This document shows, piece by piece, positions 16,216-31,632 of a DNA stretch of 64,000 bases. The notes beneath the pieces are model-generated. The model made no database searches. It was not told the DNA's origin and saw nothing but the letters and a program-made list of their open reading frames with translations. The DNA comes from Goekera deserti (lineage in GTDB: Bacteria; Actinomycetota; Actinomycetes; Mycobacteriales; Geodermatophilaceae), in NCBI RefSeq assembly GCF_010685995.1, contig NZ_JAAGWK010000009.1, positions 1-64,000 of the forward strand, in the 5' to 3' direction. The stretch's first letter is position 1. The number at the start of each line of letters is the position of its first letter. The position numbers were made by a program, and so were the translations under genes.

Positions 16216-18422
<2,207 letters not shown>

Positions 18423-20908: not shown

Positions 20909-21550
20909 TCACCCCCGGTCCGGGGGTGCCGTGGCCGAGCGGGCGAGGGCCGAGCGGATGAACTCCTCGGCGTGCCGGTGGGCGTACTCCGCGCTGAGCA
21001 CCTCCCGGGCGATGTAGCGCCGGTAGTACGGCGGTCCGGCCAGGATGTCGAAGGCGACGTCGAGGTCCATGTCGGCCCGGAACTCCCCGCTCTCCACCCC
21101 CTCCTGCAGCGCCTGCTTGAGCAGGTGCCGGCGGCGGGCGAACCAGCCGTGCACGATCGCGCCGACGGCGGGGTTCCGGTCGGCCTCGACGATGATGCTG
21201 GGCAGCGCCGCGCCGACCGGGGTGGTGGTCAGCAGGTCCACCAGGCTCCGCGTGACCAGCCGGATCGTCTCGGTGGGCGAGCCGGCGACCGGCTGGGGCG
21301 CGGCCTCGGCCATCAGCCGGGTCACGGTGCCGGCGACCAGGTCGCCCTTGGACGGCCAGCGCCGGTAGATGGTGGCCACGCCCACCCCGGCCCGCTCGAC
21401 GACGTCGCGCATCGTGAAGCCGTCGATCCCGCGCTCGGCGAGCAGCTGCAGGGTGGCCCGGTGGATGGTCTCGCCCGCCTCCTCGCTCATCGGCCGGCCG
21501 CGCGGGCGGCGGGCGGCGGTGGGGGCGCTCGGGCGTGGACTCGTGGGCAC
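20909..21550 (-). CDS. TetR-family regulator divergent from the RutA operon
   Basis: A 213-residue regulator. The N-terminal TetR helix-turn-helix reads [43 protein letters not shown]; the C-terminal ligand domain is of the TetR_C type with [24 protein letters not shown]. Start GTG at 21550. It is divergent from the ABC/RutA operon across a 237-base gap and probably represses it. In E. coli the rut operon is controlled by RutR, also of the TetR fold, but the ligand here cannot be inferred. Confidence 0.9.
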
Positions 21551-21787: not shown

Positions 21788-22963
21788 ATGAGACAACCCC
21801 TGCGTCCCGCTGGCACTGCCGGAGCCGTGGTCTGCGCCGCCCTCGTGCTCACCTCGTGCTCGAGCGGGTCCAGCGGCAGCGGGTCCGGCGGATCGGCAGC
21901 GGGTGGGTCGTCCGCCGACGGCGTCCGGTACGCGCAGGAACAGATCGACAGGTACTCCCAGGTACCTGCCTTCGAGCTGGAGGCCGAGCCGTTCGACATC
22001 ACCGCTGTGGCCGGGTCGACGATCTTCAACATCCCGTCCAGCAGCCAGGTGCCCTACGTCGTCGAGGTCGACGCCGAGGGGGCGGAACTGGCCGAGCGGT
22101 TCGGCGCGACCTGGATCGAGTACGACAACCAGGGCTCGCCCACCCAGTGGGCCGCCGGTGTCGAGCAGGCCGTCAACCAGGACGTCGACCTCATCATCCT
22201 CAGCCAGGGCGTCAACCCCAGCCTGCTGATCCCCTCGCTGACCCAGGCGGAGGACGCCGGCATCCCGGTGCTGGTCAGCCACGCCTACCAGAACGACAGC
22301 GAGCTGCCCGACGACGTCGCCGACCTGGTCACCTCCACCGTCGACGCCCCGTTCGACGAGTCGGGCCGACTGTCGGCCGACTACGCGATCGCCGACACCG
22401 AGGGCCAGGCCGACGCGCTGGTGATCACCAGCTCGGAGGTGCCGCCGTCCGACGGCATCGTCGCCGCCATCGAGGACGAGTTCGCCACCCACTGCCCCGA
22501 CTGCTCGGTCGACGTCGTCAACGTCCCGCTCACCGACTGGGCGACGAAGATCGCCGGCGAGGTGCAGTCGGCGCTGCAGAGCAACCCGGCCATCAACTAC
22601 ATCATCCCGATCTACGACTCGATGTCGATCTACGCGCAGGCCGGCATCACCGCCGCCGGCGGCACCGGCCGGGTGTCCATCGCGACGTTCAACGGCACGC
22701 TCTCGATCCTGAAGATGATCCAGGACGGCACCTCGGTGGTGATGGACTCCGGGGAGAACACCACCTGGCTGGCCTGGGCGACCTTCGACGCGGGCGCCCG
22801 GCTGATCACCGGCGCCACCCCGGCGCCGCGGAACGCGAAGACCCCGCTGCGGGTGTTCACCGCCGACAACGTCGACGAGGCCGGCACCCCACCGCAGTCG
22901 GGCATGGGCTTCGGCGACGCGTTCCGCACCGGTTACGAGACGCTCTGGGGCGTCACCTCGTGA
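21788..22963 (+). CDS. ABC importer substrate-binding lipoprotein (ribose type)
   Basis: A 391-residue extracellular solute-binding protein. The signal peptide ends in lipobox LTSC, followed by a Ser/Gly-rich linker (SSGSSGSGSGGSAAGGSS). The mature part is a type I periplasmic-binding fold of the ribose/autoinducer class (VDLIILSQGVNPSLLIPSLTQAEDAGIPVLV, ADALVITSSEV). The class binds sugars, but relatives bind nucleosides and other small polar ligands; in this operon a pyrimidine or ureido compound is plausible. The stop overlaps the GTG of the ATPase gene (GTGA). Confidence 0.9.
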   Translation: MRQPLRPAGTAGAVVCAALVLTSCSSGSSGSGSGGSAAGGSSADGVRYAQEQIDRYSQVPAFELEAEPFDITAVAGSTIFNIPSSSQVPYVVEVDAEGAELAERFGATWIEYDNQGSPTQWAAGVEQAVNQDVDLIILSQGVNPSLLIPSLTQAEDAGIPVLVSHAYQNDSELPDDVADLVTSTVDAPFDESGRLSADYAIADTEGQADALVITSSEVPPSDGIVAAIEDEFATHCPDCSVDVVNVPLTDWATKIAGEVQSALQSNPAINYIIPIYDSMSIYAQAGITAAGGTGRVSIATFNGTLSILKMIQDGTSVVMDSGENTTWLAWATFDAGARLITGATPAPRNAKTPLRVFTADNVDEAGTPPQSGMGFGDAFRTGYETLWGVTS

Positions 22964-24591
22964 CGACCCTGCAGACCACCCGTCCACCCGTGGCGCCGGC
23001 GACTGCGACGTCGACACCCCTGCTGCAGCTGCGGGGGCTGTCGAAGACGTTCGGGACGACGAAGGCACTCGACGGCGTGGACCTGACCGTCGCCCCCGGC
23101 GAGGTGCACGCGCTGCTCGGGGAGAACGGGTCGGGCAAGTCGACCCTGATCAAGGTGCTCAACGGCTTCCACGCCCCCGACCCGGGGGCCGAGCTGACCA
23201 TCGGGGGCCGGTCGGTGCCGCTGCCGGTGCCTCCGGGCCGCTTCCGGGAGCACGGCCTGGCCTTCGTGCACCAGGACCTGGCGCTGGTGCCGGAGCTGTC
23301 GGTGCTGGAGAACCTGCGGGTCGCCCACATCGCCGGCTCCCGCCGGCCGTGGATCAACTGGGGTGCCGAGCGGCGCCGCGCCCGGACGGCGTTCGGCCGC
23401 CTCGGGCTGGACGTCGACATCGACCAGCCGGTGCAGCGCCTGGGCGCGACCGAGCGGGCACTGCTGGCGATCGTCCGGGCCGCGGAGGAGATCCGGGACG
23501 CCCGCGAGCGGGCCACCGCCGAGCACTGCCTGCTGGTGCTCGACGAGCCGACGGTGTTCCTGCCCGAGGAGGGCACCGCACTGCTGTTCCGGCTCGTGCG
23601 CGACCTCGTCGCCGACGGCCGCACCAGCGTCCTGTTCGTGTCCCACGACCTGGACGAGGTGCTGGCGCACACCGACCGGGTCACCGTGCTGAGCGACGGC
23701 CGACTGCGCGGCACCGCCGACACCGCCGCGGTCACCGTGCCGCAGTTGATCGAGATGATCGTCGGTCGCCCGGTGCAGAGCCCGGTCCCGACCGAGCACG
23801 CCGGACACACCCCCGAGCGCCCGGTGCACGCCGGCGTCACCGACCTGCACGGTGGGGTGCTGGCCGGGCTGTCGTTCACCGTGGGCGCCGGCGAGGTCGT
23901 CGGCCTCACCGGGCTGGCCGGCTCCGGCTACGAGGACGTGCTGCCGGCGCTCTACGGCGCGCGACCCGGCGCATCGGGCACGCTGCGGCTGCCCGACGCG
24001 GCACTCGACCTGGCCACCAGCACCCCGGCCGCCGCGCTGGCCCACGGCGTCGTCTTCGTGCCGGCCGACCGGGCGCGGGACGGCGCGGCGGGCGAGCTGA
24101 CCGTGCTGGAGAACATGACCCTGCCGGTGCTCGCGGAGTTCCGGGGCCGGGCCGGGCTGGACCGCCGACGCCTGCTCGCCCGCGGCCGGCAGCTCACCGA
24201 GACCCACGACGTGCGCCCCCGCGACCCGCGCGCGGTGTACGGCTCGCTGTCCGGCGGCAATGCGCAGAAGGCGCTGCTGGCCAAGTGGCTGCAGACCGGG
24301 CCGCGGCTGGTGCTGCTGCACGAACCCACCCAGGGCGTGGACATCGGCGCCCGCACGCACATCCACGACCAGCTCGCCTCCGCCGCCCGCGGCGGTGCCG
24401 CGATCGTCGTCGCCAGCTCGGACTACGAGCAGCTGGCCACGCTGTGCGACCGGGTGCTCGTGCTGGCCCGGGGCCGGGTCGTGGAGCAGCTGGCCGGCCC
24501 GGCGCTGACCCGGGAACGGATCGCCGACCGGGTGCTGGGCAGCGTGACCCTGCACGAGGCGACCGGGAGCTCGCCGGAGGTGACCGCATGA
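22960..24591 (+). CDS. ABC importer ATPase, two tandem domains (RbsA/MglA type)
   Basis: A 543-residue cytoplasmic ATPase with two ABC modules. The first has Walker A GENGSGKST and Walker B LLVLDEPT, but its signature is degenerate (QRLGATERALLAI). The second has a degenerate Walker A (GLAGSGYED) but a good signature LSGGNAQKALLAKWL. Unequal halves are normal in this class, where one composite site hydrolyses ATP. The GTG start overlaps the upstream stop and the end overlaps the permease ATG. Confidence 0.92.
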   Translation: MTTLQTTRPPVAPATATSTPLLQLRGLSKTFGTTKALDGVDLTVAPGEVHALLGENGSGKSTLIKVLNGFHAPDPGAELTIGGRSVPLPVPPGRFREHGLAFVHQDLALVPELSVLENLRVAHIAGSRRPWINWGAERRRARTAFGRLGLDVDIDQPVQRLGATERALLAIVRAAEEIRDARERATAEHCLLVLDEPTVFLPEEGTALLFRLVRDLVADGRTSVLFVSHDLDEVLAHTDRVTVLSDGRLRGTADTAAVTVPQLIEMIVGRPVQSPVPTEHAGHTPERPVHAGVTDLHGGVLAGLSFTVGAGEVVGLTGLAGSGYEDVLPALYGARPGASGTLRLPDAALDLATSTPAAALAHGVVFVPADRARDGAAGELTVLENMTLPVLAEFRGRAGLDRRRLLARGRQLTETHDVRPRDPRAVYGSLSGGNAQKALLAKWLQTGPRLVLLHEPTQGVDIGARTHIHDQLASAARGGAAIVVASSDYEQLATLCDRVLVLARGRVVEQLAGPALTRERIADRVLGSVTLHEATGSSPEVTA

Positions 24592-25688
24592 CCACCACCG
24601 CGGGCAACGACACCGCGAGCGACGGCACCGCAGGCAACGACACCGCAGGCAACGACACCACGAGCAGCGTCACCACGAGCGAGGGCACCAGGACCGTCGC
24701 GCCGGTCGGGCCCGCAGCGCCGGGCCGCCGGTGGCACCGCCCGTCGGCCTACGTGGAGCGCTACGCGCTGGTGGCGGTCTGGCTGGTCGTGGTGGTGGCG
24801 TTCGGCCTCGCCCGGCCGGAGACCTACGCCACCACCGGCAACCTGCAGAACATCCTGGGCTCCCAGGCGGTGCTGCTGATCCTGGCGCTGGGCCTGCTGA
24901 TCCCGCTGACCACCGGCGGGTTCGACCTGTCGGTCACCTCGACGCTGTCGTTGTCGGCCATGCTGGTCGCCGTCCTGAACGTGCAGCACGGCTGGTCGCT
25001 GCCGGCGTGCATCGCCGCTGCGGTGGCGGCCTCGGTCGTCGTCGGGCTGGTCAACGGTGCCTGCGTCGTGCTGCTCGGCATCGACTCGTTCATCGTCACC
25101 CTCGGCACCTCGACGTTCGTCCTCGGACTGGTGCAGTGGCTGAGCGACTCCACGGCGGTGACCGGGGTCGACCCTGCGCTCACCGAGTGGACGGTGGTGA
25201 ACCGGCTGTTCGGGGTGTCGCTGTCGTTCTACTACGGGCTGCTGGCCGCCGTCGCGACGTGGTTCCTGCTCACCCGGATGCCACTGGGCCGGCGGCTGCT
25301 GTTCGTCGGCCGCGGGGCGAGCGTCGCCCGGCTGTCCGGGCTCGCGGTCGACCGGATCCGCTGGGGCTCCTTCGTGACCTCCGCGGTGGTCGCCGGGCTC
25401 GCCGGGGTGGTCTACGCCGGCAGCCTGGGCGGTGCCGACCCCAGCTCCGGCTCCTCGTTCCTGCTGCCCGCCTTCGCCGCCGCCTACCTCGGCGCCACCG
25501 CGATCACCCCCGGCCGGTTCAACGCCGTCGGCACCTTCGTCGCCGTGTACTTCCTGGTCTCCGGCGTGGTCGGCCTGCAGATGCTCGGCGTGGACAACTT
25601 CGTGCAGCAGCTGTTCTACGGCGGCGCGCTGGTCGTCGCGGTCGCGCTCTCCCAGCTGGTGCGCCGACGCACCAGCGGCGCCGGCTGA
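24588..25688 (+). CDS. ABC importer permease (ribose type)
   Basis: A 366-residue inner-membrane protein with eight to ten helices of the RbsC/AraH family; the characteristic block [26 protein letters not shown] lies around residues 100-125. A 50-residue polar N-terminal extension is built on a 15-base tandem repeat (GNDTA units). The ATG overlaps the ATPase stop (ATGA). The rutA-like gene follows after 40 bases with its own ribosome site, so the importer and the enzymes are probably one transcript. Confidence 0.92.
24603..24662 (+). repeat. 15-bp in-frame repeat in the permease N-terminus
   Basis: GGCAACGACACCGC occurs at 24603, 24633 and 24648, in 15-base register, encoding GNDTA units in the cytoplasmic tail. 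Confidence 0.7.
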
Positions 25689-25728
25689 CCCCCCTCCCCC
25701 ACCACCGCACAGAGAAGAGGAGCACGAC

Positions 25729-26808
25729 ATGGACATGGGCGTCTTCATCCCGATCGGCAACAACGGCTGGCTGATCTCCTCGGCAGCCCCGCAGTACATG
25801 CCGAGCTTCGAGCTGAACAAGCAGGTCGTGACCCTGGCCGAGGAGCACGGCCTCGACTTCGCGCTGTCGATGATCAAACTGCGCGGGTTCGGCGGGGAGA
25901 CCGGGTTCTGGGACCACAACCTGGAGTCGTTCACGCTCATGTCGGCGCTGGCCGCGGTGACCAGCAAGATCATGCTGTACGCCTCGACGGCGGTGCTCAC
26001 GCTCCCGCCGGCGATGGTGGCCCGGATGGCGACCACCATCGACTCGGTGGCGCCGGGCCGCTTCGGCATCAACATCGTGTCGGGCTGGCAGTCCGCGGAG
26101 TACGAGCAGATGGGGCTGTGGCCGGGCAACGACTACTTCGGCCACCGCTACGACTACTCCGGCGAGTACGTGCAGGTGATGAAGGAGTTGTGGGCCAAGG
26201 GCCGCAGCGACTTCGCCGGCGAGTTCTTCACCATGACCGACTGCCGGATGAGCCCGCCACCGGCCGCGGGCTCGGTGCCGATCGTGGCCGCCGGGCAGAG
26301 CGAGCGCGGCATGCGGTTCTCCGCCGAGCACGCCGACTACCAGTTCACGATGGGCGCCGGGGTCAACACCCCCACCGCCTACGCGCCGCAGAACGAGAAG
26401 CTGCTCGCCGCCACCGCCCGCACGGGCCGGGACGTCGGGGCCTACGTGCTGTTCATGGTGATCGCCGCCGACACCGACGAGGAGGCGATGGCGAGGTGGA
26501 CGGCCTACAACGAGCACGCCGACATGGGCGCACTCGCCTGGATGGCCGACCAGGCCTCGATGGACACCTCCGCCGGGGACGGCTCGACCGCCAAGCACAT
26601 CACGCTGCCCGAGGGGGCGGTCAACTTCAACATGGGCACCCTGGTCGGCTCCTACGCGTCGGTGGCCCGGATGCTGGACGAGGCCGCGGCGGTGCCCGGC
26701 ACGAAGGGCATCATGCTGACCTTCGACGACTTCCTGGTCGGGCTGGAGGACTTCGGCACGAGGATCCAGCCGCTGATGGCCTGCCGGGCCGACCGGGTCG
26801 CCGTCTGA
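25729..26808 (+). CDS. rutA: RutA-type pyrimidine monooxygenase
   Basis: A 359-residue luciferase-like flavin monooxygenase, close in length and sequence to E. coli RutA (363). Diagnostic blocks are [78 protein letters not shown] and LTFDDFL. RutA opens uracil or thymine between N3 and C4 with O2 and reduced FMN, giving ureidoacrylate. The usual flavin reductase RutF is absent from this operon. The ATG follows GAAGAGGAG by six bases. Assignment to the family is strong; the ring substrate here could differ. Confidence 0.92.
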
Positions 26809-26811
26809 GGC

Positions 26812-28275
26812 GTGCCCGACCTGACGACGTCGGCACCCGCCACGCCCCCGTGGCGGGTGCTGGCGGCGACCAGCATCGGCGTCGTGCTGACGTTCCTGAA
26901 CACCAGCAGCCTGGACGTCGCCCTGCCCTCGGTGGTCCGCCACTTCGACGCCGGCCCCACCGCGGCGGCGTGGGTGCTGCTGTCCTACATGCTCGCGGTC
27001 ACCGTGCTGGTACTCGCCCTGGGCCGGCTGTCGGACCTGCTCGGCAGGCGGCGGGTCTACCTGACCGGGCTCGCCGTGGTCACCGTGGCCAGCCTGGGCT
27101 GCGCGCTGTCCCCCGACGTCGGCGTGCTGATCGGGATGCGGGTGGGGCAGGCCATCGGTGCGGCCGCGGTCATCACCAGCACCTCGGCGATCCTGGCCGA
27201 CGCCTTCCCGGCCGAGCAGCTGCCGGTGGCCCTGGGGCTCAACGCGACGGTGGCCGCCACCGGTGCGCTGATCGGCCCGGTGGCCGGCGGGCTGCTGGTG
27301 TCCCTCGGCGGGTGGTCGGCGGTCTTCTGGCCGGTCGTGCCGCTGGGCCTGCTGGCGCTGGGCGCGTCGGCGCTGACCGTGCCGCCCTCGCCGCCGCGCC
27401 GGGCCGGCGAGCGGTTCGACCTCCTCGGCGCCGCGCTGTCCCTGCTGGGGCTGGGCGGGCTGGTGGTCGCGGTCTCCAGCGGCGGGTCGCTGGGGTGGAC
27501 CGATCCGCTGGTGCTCACCGCGGCCGGGGCCGCCGTCGTCGCACTGCCGCTGTTCGTCGTCGTCCAGGCGCGGGGCCGGCACCCGCTGCTGGACCTGGGG
27601 CTGCTCACCGACCGGGCCCGCGGGATGGCCTACCTGGCGGGCTTCCTGCTGTCGGTGGCCCAGTTCGCCGTCGTCCTGCTGGTGTCGCTGTTCCTGCAGG
27701 CCCAGGACGGGTTGTCGGCGGTGGACGCCGGGCTGTGCGTGCTGCCGGTGGCCGTCGGCACGGTGCTCACCGCACCGCTGGCCGGCCGGCTGGCCCGCCG
27801 GTTCCCCGCCCGCGCGCTGAGCACGGTGGGGCTGCTGCTGGTGGCGGCCGGGCTGCTGGTGCTGGCCGTGGTGCTGCGGCCCTCGGCCGGGGTGCTGCTG
27901 ACGGTGCCGCTGACGATGATCGGCGCGGGCACGGGGCTGTTCATGACGCCCAACACCAGCGCCATCCTGGCGAGCGTCCCGGCCGGCCGGCGCGGCGCGG
28001 CGAACGGGGTGCGGTCGATGCTGCAGAACGCGGGCTTCGTGCTCAGCACCGCCCTGACGCTGGCCGTCGTCACGGCCGGGCTGGAGCCGGCTGCGCGCGA
28101 GGCCGTGTACAGCGGGATGCTCTCCGAGCTGCCCGGGGCAGCCGGCGACGCGTTCGTCACCGGCAGCCGAGCCGCCCTGCTGGTGCTGGGGGTGCTCTGC
28201 CTCGGAGCGGTCGCCGCGTCGCTGAGCCGCGGCGCGCCGCAGCCCACCCCGCGCCCCGTGGAGGTACCCGCGTGA
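26812..28275 (+). CDS. MFS transporter (DHA2-like, 14 helices)
   Basis: A 487-residue major facilitator of the 14-helix drug:H+ antiporter group, with the loop motif GRLSDLLGRRRVYL and helix segments throughout. It sits between rutA and the cysteine hydrolase, three bases after the rutA stop, and its own stop overlaps the next GTG (GTGA), so it is firmly part of the operon. It is not related to RutG (a xanthine/uracil permease). It may export a toxic product such as an aminoacrylate or malonate-semialdehyde derivative, or be a second importer. Confidence 0.88.
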   Translation: MPDLTTSAPATPPWRVLAATSIGVVLTFLNTSSLDVALPSVVRHFDAGPTAAAWVLLSYMLAVTVLVLALGRLSDLLGRRRVYLTGLAVVTVASLGCALSPDVGVLIGMRVGQAIGAAAVITSTSAILADAFPAEQLPVALGLNATVAATGALIGPVAGGLLVSLGGWSAVFWPVVPLGLLALGASALTVPPSPPRRAGERFDLLGAALSLLGLGGLVVAVSSGGSLGWTDPLVLTAAGAAVVALPLFVVVQARGRHPLLDLGLLTDRARGMAYLAGFLLSVAQFAVVLLVSLFLQAQDGLSAVDAGLCVLPVAVGTVLTAPLAGRLARRFPARALSTVGLLLVAAGLLVLAVVLRPSAGVLLTVPLTMIGAGTGLFMTPNTSAILASVPAGRRGAANGVRSMLQNAGFVLSTALTLAVVTAGLEPAAREAVYSGMLSELPGAAGDAFVTGSRAALLVLGVLCLGAVAASLSRGAPQPTPRPVEVPA

Positions 28276-28937
28276 CCGAGCCCCGCCCCACCGAGCTGGA
28301 CGACGACTACGCCGTCGCCGGCTACCACACCGCCCTGCCCCTGGGCAGCCGTCCGGCGCTGGTGATGGTCGACCCGGTGCGCGCCTACGTCGACCCGGCC
28401 TCCGCGCTGTACGCCGGCGTGGAGGACGCCGTCGGCGGCATGGTCGAGCTGCTGGCGGTGGCCCGCGCGGCCGGCGTCCCGGTGGTGTTCACCCAGGTCG
28501 TCTACCGGGCCGACGGGGCCGACGGCGGGGTGTTCTGGCGCAAGGTCCCCGCGCTGGCCGCGAACTTCACCGAGGGCAACCCGATGGGCGCGTTCATCCC
28601 CGGCGTCGAGCCGCAGCCGGGCGAGACCGTGCTGGTCAAGAAGTACCCGAGCGCGTTCTTCGGCACGCCGCTGGCCCCGATGCTGACCGCGCTCGGCGTG
28701 GACACCGTGGTCATCGGCGGGCTGTCCACCAGCGGCTGCGTGCGCGCCACCGCCACCGACGCCATGTCCCACGGCTTCCTCCCGCTGGTGGTGGAGGACG
28801 CGGTCGGCGACCGGCACGAGGCGCCGCACCGGGCCAACCTGTTCGACCTCGCCGCCAAGGTCGGCGAGGTGCGACCGCTGGCCGCGGTCCGCGAGTGGCT
28901 GCAGACCCTGACCCCACCGGGAGGAGACCGATCATGA
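28272..28937 (+). CDS. Isochorismatase-fold cysteine hydrolase (N-carbamoylsarcosine amidase type)
   Basis: A 221-residue hydrolase with the family triad D34 (MVDPVRAY), K124 (VLVKKYPSAFFG) and C156 (STSGCVRATATDAM). The stretch from STSGCVRATATDAM to PHRANLFDLAAKVGEV resembles N-carbamoylsarcosine and maleamate amidohydrolases more than E. coli RutB, which belongs to the same fold. In the RutA setting it would remove the carbamoyl group of the ring-opened ureido product. The GTG start overlaps the MFS stop; the stop overlaps the nitrilase ATG. Confidence 0.87.
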   Translation: MTEPRPTELDDDYAVAGYHTALPLGSRPALVMVDPVRAYVDPASALYAGVEDAVGGMVELLAVARAAGVPVVFTQVVYRADGADGGVFWRKVPALAANFTEGNPMGAFIPGVEPQPGETVLVKKYPSAFFGTPLAPMLTALGVDTVVIGGLSTSGCVRATATDAMSHGFLPLVVEDAVGDRHEAPHRANLFDLAAKVGEVRPLAAVREWLQTLTPPGGDRS

Positions 28938-29818
28938 CCCTGCAGGTGGCAGTGGTGCAGTCCGGCGGGCAGGGCAGCGACCCGGCGGCCGGCCTCGAGC
29001 AGCTGTGCGCGCTGGTCGAGCAGGCCGCCACCCCGGGCACCGACCTGGTGGTGCTGCCCGAGCTCTGCTCCTCGCCCTACTTCTGCACCACCCGGGACGC
29101 CGCGCGGCACTCCCGGGCCGAGCCGCTGAGCGGGCCGACGACGACGGCGTTCGCCGCGCTCGCCGCCCGGCTCGGGGTCGCGGTGATGTTCGGGGTGTAC
29201 GAGCGGGCGGCCGACGGGTCGCTCTACAACAGCGCGGTGCTCCTCGACCGCACCGGTGCCCTGGTCCGGCCCACGGCACTGGACGGCACCGAGGCACCGG
29301 CGTACCGCAAGATGTCGATCCCCTCGGTGTGCACCCCGGACCTGGACACCGACGAGAAGTTCTACTTCAAGCCCGGTCCCGAGCCGGTGGCGTTCACCCT
29401 GGACGGCGTCCGGCTGGGCTGCGTCATCTGCTACGACCGCAGCTTCCCGGAGTACTGGCTGGCCGCCCGGGCGCTCGGGGCGCAGGTGGTGGTGGCGCTG
29501 GTCAGCTCCTTCGGCTGGCGGGACGGCCTGTTCGTCGACGAGCTGGTGGTGCGCGCCTTCGAGACCCAGGTGTTCGTCGTGGCCGCCAACCGCGGTGGAC
29601 CGGAGACCTTCGAGGGCGCGACGACGTCGTTCTTCGGGCGCAGCTGCGTCATCGACCCCACCGGCGTGCTGCTCGCCGAGGCTCCGGCGCACGAGTCCCC
29701 GGTGACGCTGCACGCCACCCTGGACCTCGCCGCGGTGGACGCCGCCCGCTCCCGGCTGCCGCTGGCCCGGGACCGCCGCGCCGACGTGCTGGCCCTGCTC
29801 GCCCGGGCCGCGCGCTGA
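28934..29818 (+). CDS. Nitrilase-superfamily carbon-nitrogen hydrolase
   Basis: A 294-residue protein with the Glu-Lys-Cys triad E43 (VVLPELCSS), K126 (YRKMSIP) and C166 (LGCVICYDRSFPE). Overall it resembles N-carbamoylputrescine amidase and beta-ureidopropionase, which hydrolyse N-carbamoyl amines to amine, CO2 and ammonia. With the cysteine hydrolase before it and the amidase after it, three different amide/carbamoyl hydrolases follow RutA, which suggests stepwise removal of nitrogen from the substrate. The ATG overlaps the preceding stop (ATGA). Confidence 0.9.
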   Translation: MTLQVAVVQSGGQGSDPAAGLEQLCALVEQAATPGTDLVVLPELCSSPYFCTTRDAARHSRAEPLSGPTTTAFAALAARLGVAVMFGVYERAADGSLYNSAVLLDRTGALVRPTALDGTEAPAYRKMSIPSVCTPDLDTDEKFYFKPGPEPVAFTLDGVRLGCVICYDRSFPEYWLAARALGAQVVVALVSSFGWRDGLFVDELVVRAFETQVFVVAANRGGPETFEGATTSFFGRSCVIDPTGVLLAEAPAHESPVTLHATLDLAAVDAARSRLPLARDRRADVLALLARAAR

Positions 29819-29832
29819 CCCCCGGGGGCGCG

Positions 29833-31632
29833 GTGACGGCGGGCGAGCCGGCCGCGGTGACGACGGGCGCGGTGGGCGAGCCGGCTGCGGTGACGACGGG
29901 CGCGGTGGAGGAGCCGGCCGGGGTGGCCTGGGGTCCGGCGCTCGGCGGCGAGCGGATGGCTGCCGCGCGCGGCTGGGCCGGCGAGGGGCTGCGGCGCTCC
30001 CGGGAGCGCCCGCTGCCGCTGCCCACGCCCGCCGACGGGTCGGAGCCCGCGCACTTCGCCGCGCTGCTGGCCCGGCCGGTGGCGCCCGAGCCGGCCGGAC
30101 CCGCGGTGCGTCACCCCGCCGCATCCCGGTCCGTCGCCGAGTCGTCCCGCGCCGAGCTGCCCGGTACCCAGTTGGCTGCTGCCCCGTTGGCTGCTGCCCA
30201 GTTGGCTGCTGCCCAGTTGGCTGCTGCCCAGCTGCCCGTGGCCGGGCAGCTGCACCTCGCCGGCGTGACCGGGCTGCTGGCCGGCTTCGCGGCCGGCGCC
30301 TTCACCCCGACCGACGTCGTGGACGAGCTGACCGCCCGCATCGCCGAGCGGGGGGCGAGGACCGGGGCGGTGCTGCGGGTGCTCGCCGGTGCCGCGGACG
30401 CCGCCGCGGAGAGCTCCGCCCGCTGGCGCGCGGGCAACGCCCGGCCGCTGGAGGGCGTGCCGTTCGGGGTCAAGGACGTGCTGGACGTGGCCGGCGCGGT
30501 GGTCACCAGCGGCAGCCGGGTCACCGGCGACCGGATCGCCGCCACCGACGCCACCGCGGTCGCCCGCTGGCGGGCGGCCGGCGCCGTCCCGCTGGCGATG
30601 CTGGCCACCAGCGAGTTCGCCTGCGGGGCGCCGCAGAACGGCCGCTACGGCGCGGTGCGCAACCCGTGGGACCAGCGTCGCTGGACCGGCGGCTCCTCCA
30701 CCGGTTCGGGCGCCGCGCTGGCCGACCGGCTGGTGCCGCTGGCGCTGGGTACCGACACCGCCGGCTCGATCCGGCTGCCCTCGGCCTGGTGCGGCACGAC
30801 CGGCCTGAAGCCGACCTACGGCCGGGTGCCGCGGACCGGCGTCGCGACGCTGTCCTGGACGCTGGACCACGTGGGCCCGATGGCCCGCACCGCCGAGGAC
30901 CTGGCACTGGTCCTGCCGTTGCTCTCCGGCCCGGACGGCGTCGACCCCAGCGCGCTGACGGGCTACGACCAGCCCGGGCCGCTGTCACCGGACCTCACCG
31001 GCCTGCGGGTCGGTGTGCCCGGCAGCTGGTTCACCGACTGCGTGGACAGCCAGGTGCTGTTGGCCTTCGAGGCGGCGCTGACCGTGCTGGTCGACGCGGG
31101 CGCGCAGCTGGTGCCGGTGGCCGAGGGCGACCTGCAGCCGGTGTTCGACGAGGCGTGGACGATCCTCTACGCCGAGCTGGCCTCCGGTCACGAGGGCGGC
31201 CCGCAGCGCGCGGGGCTGTACGACGACGGCCTGCTCGACCGGCTCTCCCGCGGGGTGGTGATCGGCGCGACCGACTACCTGCGGGCGCTCCGGCGGCGCG
31301 CATCGGTGACCGCGGAGCTGGCCGCGCGGCTCTTCGGCGGTGCCGACGTGCTGCTCACCCCGGGCCCCGGTGCGCGGGCACCGCTGCTGGCGGACCTGCT
31401 GCTGGACGTCGACGGCGAGCAGCTGCCCATGCTGTCGGTGCACTCGCGCAACACGGTGCCCTTCGACCTGACCGGCATGCCGGCGCTGATGCTGCCTGCC
31501 GGCACCGACGACCACGGCATGCCGATGGCCGTGCAGGTGGTGGCCCCGCACCACCGCGACGAGCTGTGCCTGCGGGTCGGGCTGGCCCTCCAGGCGCGCA
31601 CGGCGCACCACCGGGCCGTCCCGCCCGGCTGA
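29833..31632 (+). CDS. Amidase-signature hydrolase with repeat-rich N-terminus
   Basis: A 599-residue amidase-signature enzyme. The catalytic core starts near residue 140 (LHLAGVTGLLAGF); the Ser-Ser-Lys triad is K214 (GVKDVLD), the cis-serine in TGGSSTGSG (286-293) and nucleophile S312 (GTDTAGSIRLPS). Residues 1-138 are unusual: two 11-residue repeats, a segment PLPLPTPADGSEPAHFAALL, then four LAAAQ-type repeats. GTG at 29833, fourteen bases after the nitrilase stop, is the first plausible start; a start nearer the core cannot be excluded. It would release ammonia from an amide in the pathway. Confidence 0.85.
   Translation: MTAGEPAAVTTGAVGEPAAVTTGAVEEPAGVAWGPALGGERMAAARGWAGEGLRRSRERPLPLPTPADGSEPAHFAALLARPVAPEPAGPAVRHPAASRSVAESSRAELPGTQLAAAPLAAAQLAAAQLAAAQLPVAGQLHLAGVTGLLAGFAAGAFTPTDVVDELTARIAERGARTGAVLRVLAGAADAAAESSARWRAGNARPLEGVPFGVKDVLDVAGAVVTSGSRVTGDRIAATDATAVARWRAAGAVPLAMLATSEFACGAPQNGRYGAVRNPWDQRRWTGGSSTGSGAALADRLVPLALGTDTAGSIRLPSAWCGTTGLKPTYGRVPRTGVATLSWTLDHVGPMARTAEDLALVLPLLSGPDGVDPSALTGYDQPGPLSPDLTGLRVGVPGSWFTDCVDSQVLLAFEAALTVLVDAGAQLVPVAEGDLQPVFDEAWTILYAELASGHEGGPQRAGLYDDGLLDRLSRGVVIGATDYLRALRRRASVTAELAARLFGGADVLLTPGPGARAPLLADLLLDVDGEQLPMLSVHSRNTVPFDLTGMPALMLPAGTDDHGMPMAVQVVAPHHRDELCLRVGLALQARTAHHRAVPPG
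29842..29907 (+). repeat. 33-bp in-frame tandem duplication (amidase N-terminus)
   Basis: Two adjacent 33-base copies, 29842-29874 and 29875-29907, differ at one base and encode GEPAAVTTGAV twice. Confidence 0.8.
30171..30230 (+). repeat. 15-bp tandem repeat, four copies (amidase N-terminus)
   Basis: GTTGGCTGCTGCCC(C/A) is repeated four times without gaps and encodes LAAAP/LAAAQ units in the amidase N-terminal extension. Use of TTG for leucine is unlike the flanking codons, which suggests recent expansion. Confidence 0.85.

Follow-up and report, generated by a model that had tools for sequence, protein, structure and literature searches.

An operon of Goekera deserti built on a paralogue clade of RutA, a candidate pathway for a cyclic ureide

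The operon and its genes

We analysed a stretch of 64,000 nucleotides from Goekera deserti (contig NZ_JAAGWK010000009.1, positions 1 to 64,000; the window), which carries an operon built around a RutA-family monooxygenase dependent on flavin mononucleotide (FMN). Eight co-directed genes occupy positions 21788-31632 of the forward strand, and a regulator gene diverges from them. The genes are the following.

20909..21550, - strand: TetR-family regulator, divergent from the operon (Pfam TetR_N and TetR_C_11)
21788..22963, + strand: substrate-binding protein of a ribose-type importer, lipoprotein-type with a lipobox seen by eye (Pfam Peripla_BP_4)
22960..24591, + strand: ABC importer ATPase with two fused ABC domains (top NCBIfam models are sugar importers, far under cut-off)
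24588..25688, + strand: ABC importer permease (Pfam BPD_transp_2)
25729..26808, + strand: RutA-family FMN-dependent monooxygenase, RutA2 clade (TIGR03612, 614.2 bits, cut-off 498.3)
26812..28275, + strand: DHA2-type transporter of the major facilitator superfamily (MFS) (TIGR00711, 227.7 bits, cut-off 230.2)
28272..28937, + strand: isochorismatase-fold cysteine amidohydrolase of the N-carbamoylsarcosine/maleamate kind (Asp34, Lys123, Cys156)
28934..29818, + strand: nitrilase-superfamily C-N hydrolase (Pfam CN_hydrolase)
29833..31632, + strand: amidase-signature hydrolase (Pfam Amidase; nearest curated model AtzE)

Along the operon the Pfam order is Peripla_BP_4, ABC_tran (two stretches), BPD_transp_2, Bac_luciferase, MFS_1, Isochorismatase, CN_hydrolase and Amidase. 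The junction gaps are -4, -4, 40, 3, -4, -4 and 14 bases, and six of the seven junctions overlap or lie within 14 bases. The last gap presumes that the amidase starts at GTG 29833; this start is uncertain, because homology to other amidases begins only at about 30262. An initial annotation had described eight co-directed genes, six tight junctions and a divergent TetR gene, all of which agrees with the gene coordinates. The MFS gene between RutA and the cysteine hydrolase was not named there. The G+C content across the window is about 71-80% in 2 kb steps.

The window RutA belongs to a separate clade

The window RutA aligns to the solved E. coli RutA across residues 1-355. Apart from it, no operon protein reached the cut-off of any Rut model. 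The operon hydrolase scored 49 bits with the RutB model TIGR03614 (cut-off 377.95), and no RutB match was detected genome-wide at E 1e-60. When E. coli proteins were used as tblastn queries against the window (E 1e-8), rutB was the sole rut query that matched (28% to the cysteine hydrolase), and rutC, rutD, rutE and rutG gave no match. The best RutF match of the genome reached 52.6 bits (cut-off 254.75) and was a Flavin_Reduct protein on contig C10. A truncated Rut operon with RutB or RutF encoded elsewhere was rejected on these scores. RutA had been called the only obvious rut counterpart of the operon, and it is a genuine one, the remaining rut genes being missing from the operon. Since the genome gave no RutB match and no RutF over cut-off, and the window no match to RutC, RutD, RutE or RutG, the system would work like the Rut pathway without being a member of it.

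RutA relatives were surveyed in one genome per species (the 80 best of 582), in plasmids and in further genomes. In a quick tree of 117 rows, the eight RutA encoded beside rutB, rutC or rutD grouped together (SH-aLRT 99). A careful tree of 66 rows, made without L110, L118 and a single long branch of L082, recovered these eight canonical RutA as one clade (100/99), and the other 58 rows, window included, stood on the opposite side. By these trees the window RutA is placed in a separate clade, which we name RutA2. Its position on the RutA2 side is poorly resolved, and no starred group of at most half of the rows includes it; the nearest rows by path are Rhizobiaceae loci, with 76% identity. Because the 80 loci are the best matches to the window RutA, the sample over-represents RutA2.

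Seven alignment positions split canonical RutA from RutA2 almost completely. The position of E. coli Thr105 is Thr in 8/8 canonical rows and Ser in 96/97 RutA2 rows, in a comparison that omitted the 8 second copies and four rows (L047, L110, L118, L120). Asn134 and Trp139 (E. coli RutA numbering) are invariant across the aligned rows. Thr105 is described as bordering the oxygen pocket in an excerpt of PMC10005588, and a portion of PMC8234197 gives Asn134 and Thr/Ser105 as the dioxygen-binding motif of RutA oxygen-pocket enzymes. The window enzyme carries both residues of this motif, as Asn115 (Asn134) and Ser86 (Thr105).

Further RutA-family copies were observed in several places. Eight loci (L029, L042, L065, L066, L067, L075, L077, L082) contain two RutA-family genes, one RutA2 and one more divergent copy with 53-63% identity to the window RutA. 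In L070 the RutA beside rutBCD (17266-18320) matches in two separate stretches (61% and 48%), which gives it the look of a broken or frameshifted gene, and two RutA2-like copies lie near it. The window genome also encodes a second RutA-like monooxygenase (contig C45:9141-10199; 374 bits, below cut-off; 43% identity), and no partner gene of this system was found in the surrounding 20 kb.

The gene set is conserved in other actinobacteria and varies in Rhizobiaceae

RutA over cut-off is patchy in the relatives of the window genome. It was found in 10/112 genomes of its own family (window included), in 12/397 of its order, and in 1/396 genomes drawn from its phylum, that one being the window genome. 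In a related family of the same order (f8), 18/401 genomes have such a RutA, and 11 of the 18 encode all eight genes (L150, L151, L152, L156, L158-L163, L168). There the order is RutA, nitrilase, amidase, MFS, cysteine hydrolase, binding protein, ATPase and permease. These clusters are 44-70% identical to the window proteins overall (ATPase 54-59%, permease 62-70%, MFS 44-49%, nitrilase 49-55%, RutA 67-69%), with the L151 permease cut by a contig end. A LacI gene precedes RutA in 10/11 of them, not in L168. The last 10 kb of one f8 contig (G892, L155) are identical to sequence of the Gordonia namibiensis contig L087, which makes an actinobacterial order probable. The recurrence of the eight genes in another order and with another regulator is hard to explain without a joint function, and a chance run of genes was rejected on this ground. 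We regard the ring-opening operon built on a RutA paralogue clade as real and conserved; what is known of the families, together with the gene context, speaks for its general mechanism.

Partial sets were found elsewhere among actinobacteria. Nocardia (L068) and Amycolatopsis (L084) have RutA, nitrilase, amidase and cysteine hydrolase under LacI, with an MFS gene as well in L068. The nine other holders of the window's own family (L101-L109) show a cysteine hydrolase (37-41%), an MmgE/PrpD gene, RutA and an isocitrate-lyase-family (ICL) gene, and a WrbA-type flavoprotein gene is also present in 8/9; the families were assigned on L101 and by homology for the remainder.

Rhizobiaceae loci typically contain a GntR regulator, RutA2, one or two amidases, a cysteine hydrolase and often an ICL-family gene. 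Their divergent side holds an MFS gene, an importer, an AtzE-like amidase and a RutF-like reductase, which in L023 scored 251 bits against a cut-off of 254.75. The importer proteins are about 37%, 44% and 52% identical to those of the window, the MFS protein differs in type from the DHA2-type protein of the window (L023), and L012 is a locus without importer. Conservation of the set along with its TetR gene had been named as a check. The gene set itself recurs in the 11 f8 genomes, and TetR is replaced, by LacI in 10/11 of these and by GntR in Rhizobiaceae; the window TetR gene had no homologue in any locus searched. Its product is probably the repressor of the operon, and RutR was absent from its four NCBIfam matches.

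Gene frequencies were counted at those RutA2 loci that had 5 kb or more on each side (n=95). For this count, 22/136 RutA rows were excluded (9 as canonical, 8 as divergent second copies and 5 others, from L047, L110, L118, L120 and L167), and 19 of the 114 RutA2 rows were dropped for less than 5 kb on one side, including L052. One of the nine, L070_11096, does not belong among the canonical rows and was counted there on account of a rutB within 8 kb; the correct set is the eight canonical rows of the residue comparison and of the 66-row tree. An amidase was found at 71 loci, a cysteine hydrolase at 58, a binding protein at 43 and a nitrilase at 19, frequencies that describe the best-match sample and fetched relatives rather than all RutA genes. 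None of the 95 had rutB, rutC or rutD within 8 kb. Two of them, L058 and L070, hold a canonical set just past this limit, its RutA starting 7.3 kb away, and in L052, outside the 95, a canonical RutA starts 5.5 kb from RutA2. Arylmalonate-decarboxylase-family genes were also seen beside or near RutA2 (L120 7219-7962, L157 at about 17460).

The importer and the hydrolases

The binding-protein subfamily was detected in seven of 72,556 plasmid records (E 1e-10). Four of these, from Rhizobium rhododendri, Palleronia and Thioclava (two records), each carry a RutA gene 69-76% identical to that of the window. Three of the four RutA are RutA2 in the 117-row tree, and the fourth (CP155823) is absent from it. 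In the Thioclava record examined, importer and RutA are more than 100 kb apart, and the importer adjoins MFS and flavin reductase genes. The remaining three records, one from Salipiger and two from Shinella, have the importer beside allantoin/ureide genes. The Salipiger importer adjoins allantoinase PuuE and ureidoglycolate lyase, and the Shinella importer adjoins PuuE, a carbamoylase-type amidase and RidA. These importers resemble that of the window (binding protein 35-37%; Shinella permease 53%, and 61-64% to three Rhizobiaceae RutA2 loci). They differ from it in these gene links and in having no RutA annotated within 9 kb (two annotated records), and their ligand is likewise a presumed one.

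The predicted model of the window binding protein (pLDDT 85) matched sugar-binding folds best among solved structures (Z about 30, 12-21% identity). No ureide-binding protein was among the 50 rows of this comparison, which excludes nothing. In an alignment with RbsB, the residues Asp89, Arg90, Asn190 and Asp215, which we take to be the ribose contacts under this numbering, correspond to His165, Ala, Tyr276 and Asn302. A ribose importer was rejected, since these presumed contacts are replaced and the RbsA model gave 290.8 bits (cut-off 745). As to ordinary sugars as ligands, the family resembles, by context and alignment, a ureide importer rather than a ribose importer, and its ligand would be a ureide.

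Against solved structures, the cysteine hydrolase scored 158 bits with N-carbamoylsarcosine amidohydrolase, 145 bits with 3ot4, which we take to be maleamate amidohydrolase, and 45 bits with RutB. These scores support the initial assignment of this hydrolase to the N-carbamoylsarcosine/maleamate type. All nine aligned rows, RutB among them, keep its Asp34, Lys123 and Cys156. The gene is no marker of RutA2, because it matched 242 plasmid records; the three plasmid neighbourhoods examined had no RutA and contained CoA-transferase, racemase or monooxygenase genes. The nitrilase and the amidase reached the cut-off of no listed NCBIfam model. The former gave 126.9 bits with the AguB model TIGR03381 (cut-off 410.25), so that the proposed "nitrilase-family carbamoyl hydrolase" is an assignment at the level of the fold. 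The amidase gave 271 bits with the AtzE model TIGR02715 (cut-off 425.75). At E 1e-60 it matched 2/72,556 plasmid records, both holders of RutA2.

Flavin supply

We examined the stretch beyond the permease in 8 of the 11 full-set relatives. In six (G931, G974, G858, G958, G982, G1122) the permease is followed by FMN_red, Flavin_Reduct and RibBA genes; G1028 has both reductases without RibBA, and G897 has none of the three. The families were assigned on G931. In each of the six genomes one or more other ribB genes pass the cut-off elsewhere, which makes the copy in the cluster an extra one. The single ribB of the window genome is part of a riboflavin gene cluster, at a distance of 2.5 kb from the TetR gene. 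The homologues of the two reductases in this genome (72% and 55%) are on contig C10, where they follow an amidase whose N-terminus looks signal-like. This pair probably supplies RutA2 with reduced flavin, its Flavin_Reduct half being a likely functional substitute for RutF.

Extra RibBA/DHBP-synthase genes were also seen beside RutA2 clusters in two phyla (L170 1919-3139, L119 1548-2123, L066 at about 2974). A parallel is known from lux operons, which contain rib genes and are likewise luciferase-like.

Many RutA2 hosts own a standard pyrimidine route

If RutA2 served uracil only, its hosts would seldom be expected to own a further route; 46 RutA2-bearing genomes (L067 not included) were searched for one. 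RutB was over cut-off in 14 (17 at E 1e-60), and D-hydantoinase/dihydropyrimidinase in 29. Among the 33 genomes reached through loci, RutB or hydantoinase was present in 30. The 33 include 30 Alphaproteobacteria, which account for all 14 RutB and of which 28 have at least one route. Since many hosts of RutA2 already own one or two standard routes, its ring is probably not just uracil or thymine, and uracil alone is an unlikely target in hosts holding RutB or hydantoinase. This argument carries much weight for Alphaproteobacteria and little for the window, whose genome lacks both a hydantoinase over cut-off and a RutB match at E 1e-60.

Proposed pathway and alternatives

We propose, with a probability of about 0.6, that the operon encodes the uptake and ring opening of a cyclic ureide, probably not uracil or thymine only. 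The ABC importer would take up the ureide, as its family context suggests. RutA2, with reduced FMN and O2, would then cleave a ring N-C(=O) bond as RutA does on uracil, which the Rut pathway opens at N3-C4, a chemistry expected from family membership. The cysteine hydrolase may act in the role of RutB and remove a terminal carbamoyl or amide group, and the amidase and the nitrilase may strip the remaining C-N groups; substrates and order of these steps are presumptive. Reduced flavin would come from the FMN_red and Flavin_Reduct pair on the other contig; most of the relatives examined have a homologous pair next to the operon. The MFS protein may export or import a pathway compound, and TetR would repress the operon. 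The variant route for a cyclic ureide suggested initially fits these results; as a one-off it does not, because RutA2 is a widespread paralogous clade, often in genomes with the canonical pathway. We hold the chances to be even that RutA2 marks an undescribed catabolic pathway, widespread in Alphaproteobacteria and Actinobacteria, which opens a cyclic ureide other than uracil or thymine and has its own importer and C-N hydrolases and, in several actinobacteria, its own flavin reductases and an extra RibBA.

Several observations weigh against the ureide pathway. The core varies among the 95 RutA2 loci (cysteine hydrolase 58, binding protein 43, nitrilase 19), and 7/18 f8 genomes do not show the full set: three are cut by contig ends (L154, L155, L164), and four have fewer genes (L153 without amidase and importer, L115 and L166 with RutA and cysteine hydrolase, L167 with RutA and amidase). 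The window RutA does not group with the RutA2 standing in the same gene set in the 66-row tree. Three records, which come from two genera, make up the allantoin link. The hydantoinase model lacks specificity for pyrimidines. Among 16 actinobacterial holders (13 genomes with G handles, window genome included, and L068, L080 and L084), RutB was found in none and hydantoinase over cut-off in four; with 12/16 lacking hydantoinase, the operon could there be a plain uracil route.

Such an ordinary uracil/thymine pathway, in which RutA2 opens uracil, the cysteine hydrolase replaces RutB, the importer replaces RutG and later steps are spontaneous or unlinked, is in our view unlikely, with a real claim nonetheless. 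It agrees with the window RutA passing an equivalog cut-off, with the window genome having neither RutB nor hydantoinase at the thresholds above, and with a RutE-like reductase at 5/95 RutA2 loci. Moreover, RutC and RutD are dispensable in E. coli according to a part of PMC8113886, so their absence is compatible with uracil. It agrees poorly with the canonical RutB or hydantoinase of so many RutA2 genomes (RutB in 14/46, either in 30/33), and with L052, L058 and L070, which hold a canonical rut set whose RutA starts 5.5-7.3 kb from RutA2; uracil also requires no two extra C-N hydrolases. We consider a ring that is carboxylated or has a carbon substituent (orotate- or imide-like) a distinctly improbable substrate; its opening would give a maleamate- or malate-like acid, finished by dicarboxylate enzymes. 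The cysteine hydrolase is near the presumed maleamate amidohydrolase, RutA2 of relatives stands beside MmgE/PrpD and ICL-family or arylmalonate-decarboxylase-family genes, and the window genome has an ICL-family gene at C60:11340. However, the window operon contains no such gene, the ICL gene being located on a different contig, ICL and PrpD occur at 23/95 and 10/95 RutA2 loci, and RutA2 subclades may differ in the ring used. PrpD/ICL-type genes were rejected as a part of the system, being outside the operon; the C60 gene adjoins one that looks GntR-like by eye. Detoxification or antibiotic handling, with a DHA2 exporter and hydrolases removing a toxic nucleobase analogue, is very improbable: the MFS protein scores close to the DHA2 exporter model, but the presence of three hydrolases and of an ABC importer dedicated to the pathway speaks for a nutritional role, and the MFS of Rhizobiaceae is of another type (L023).

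Relation to known systems

The cyclic-ureide operon shares with E. coli Rut (rutABCDEFG) a RutA equivalog, a divergent TetR-family regulator, an isochorismatase-fold hydrolase after ring opening and a probable dependence on flavin reductase. It differs from it in having no RutB-G orthologues, an ABC importer instead of RutG, two additional C-N hydrolases and a RutA from a separate clade. N-carbamoylsarcosine amidohydrolase and maleamate amidohydrolase (NicF) are the nearest solved structures to the cysteine hydrolase, which keeps their catalytic Asp-Lys-Cys residues; unlike them, it stands beside RutA2, in an operon without hydantoin, creatinine or nicotinate gene. AtzE of the cyanuric acid route provides the curated model nearest to the amidase, whose score is below the cut-off, and the operon has no AtzD-type gene.

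In our searches of the open-licence PMC literature, judged by titles and the starts of abstracts, no paper on this gene set or on a RutA paralogue pathway was found. RutA is a model enzyme of flavin-N5-peroxide chemistry, with uracil and thymine as its described substrates (PMC7662398). Which rings this chemistry can open would find a natural test in a sister clade that has a conserved pathway of its own. If our proposal is true, it adds a new way in which soil, plant-associated and marine bacteria recover nitrogen from ureides. The automatic label "pyrimidine utilization protein A" may mislead on the substrate in many genomes; the window RutA2 earns it by passing the curated cut-off, and RutA2 genes in public records are annotated with it.

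Genomic setting

The operon sits between rsmB and rpe. The order rsmB, rpe, ribD, ribBA is kept in 6/6 relatives examined, and none of these has TetR, binding-protein, RutA or amidase genes between rsmB and rpe. The gap between the two genes is 12.5 kb in the window versus 0.2-4.5 kb in the six. The intact order without the operon in the relatives suggests that it was inserted there, and it was probably acquired laterally. The importer genes resemble the f8 set more closely, and the window RutA resembles RutA2 of Rhizobiaceae more closely (up to 76%, versus 67-69% to the 11 full-set clusters), which hints at a mosaic history; a mosaic operon is possible by these identities.

Short tandem repeats with units of 15 and 33 bp were observed at 24596-24690 in the permease gene and at 29837-29925 and 30167-30231 in the amidase gene. 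They encode low-complexity N-terminal stretches, in the amidase within the part upstream of the homologous region.

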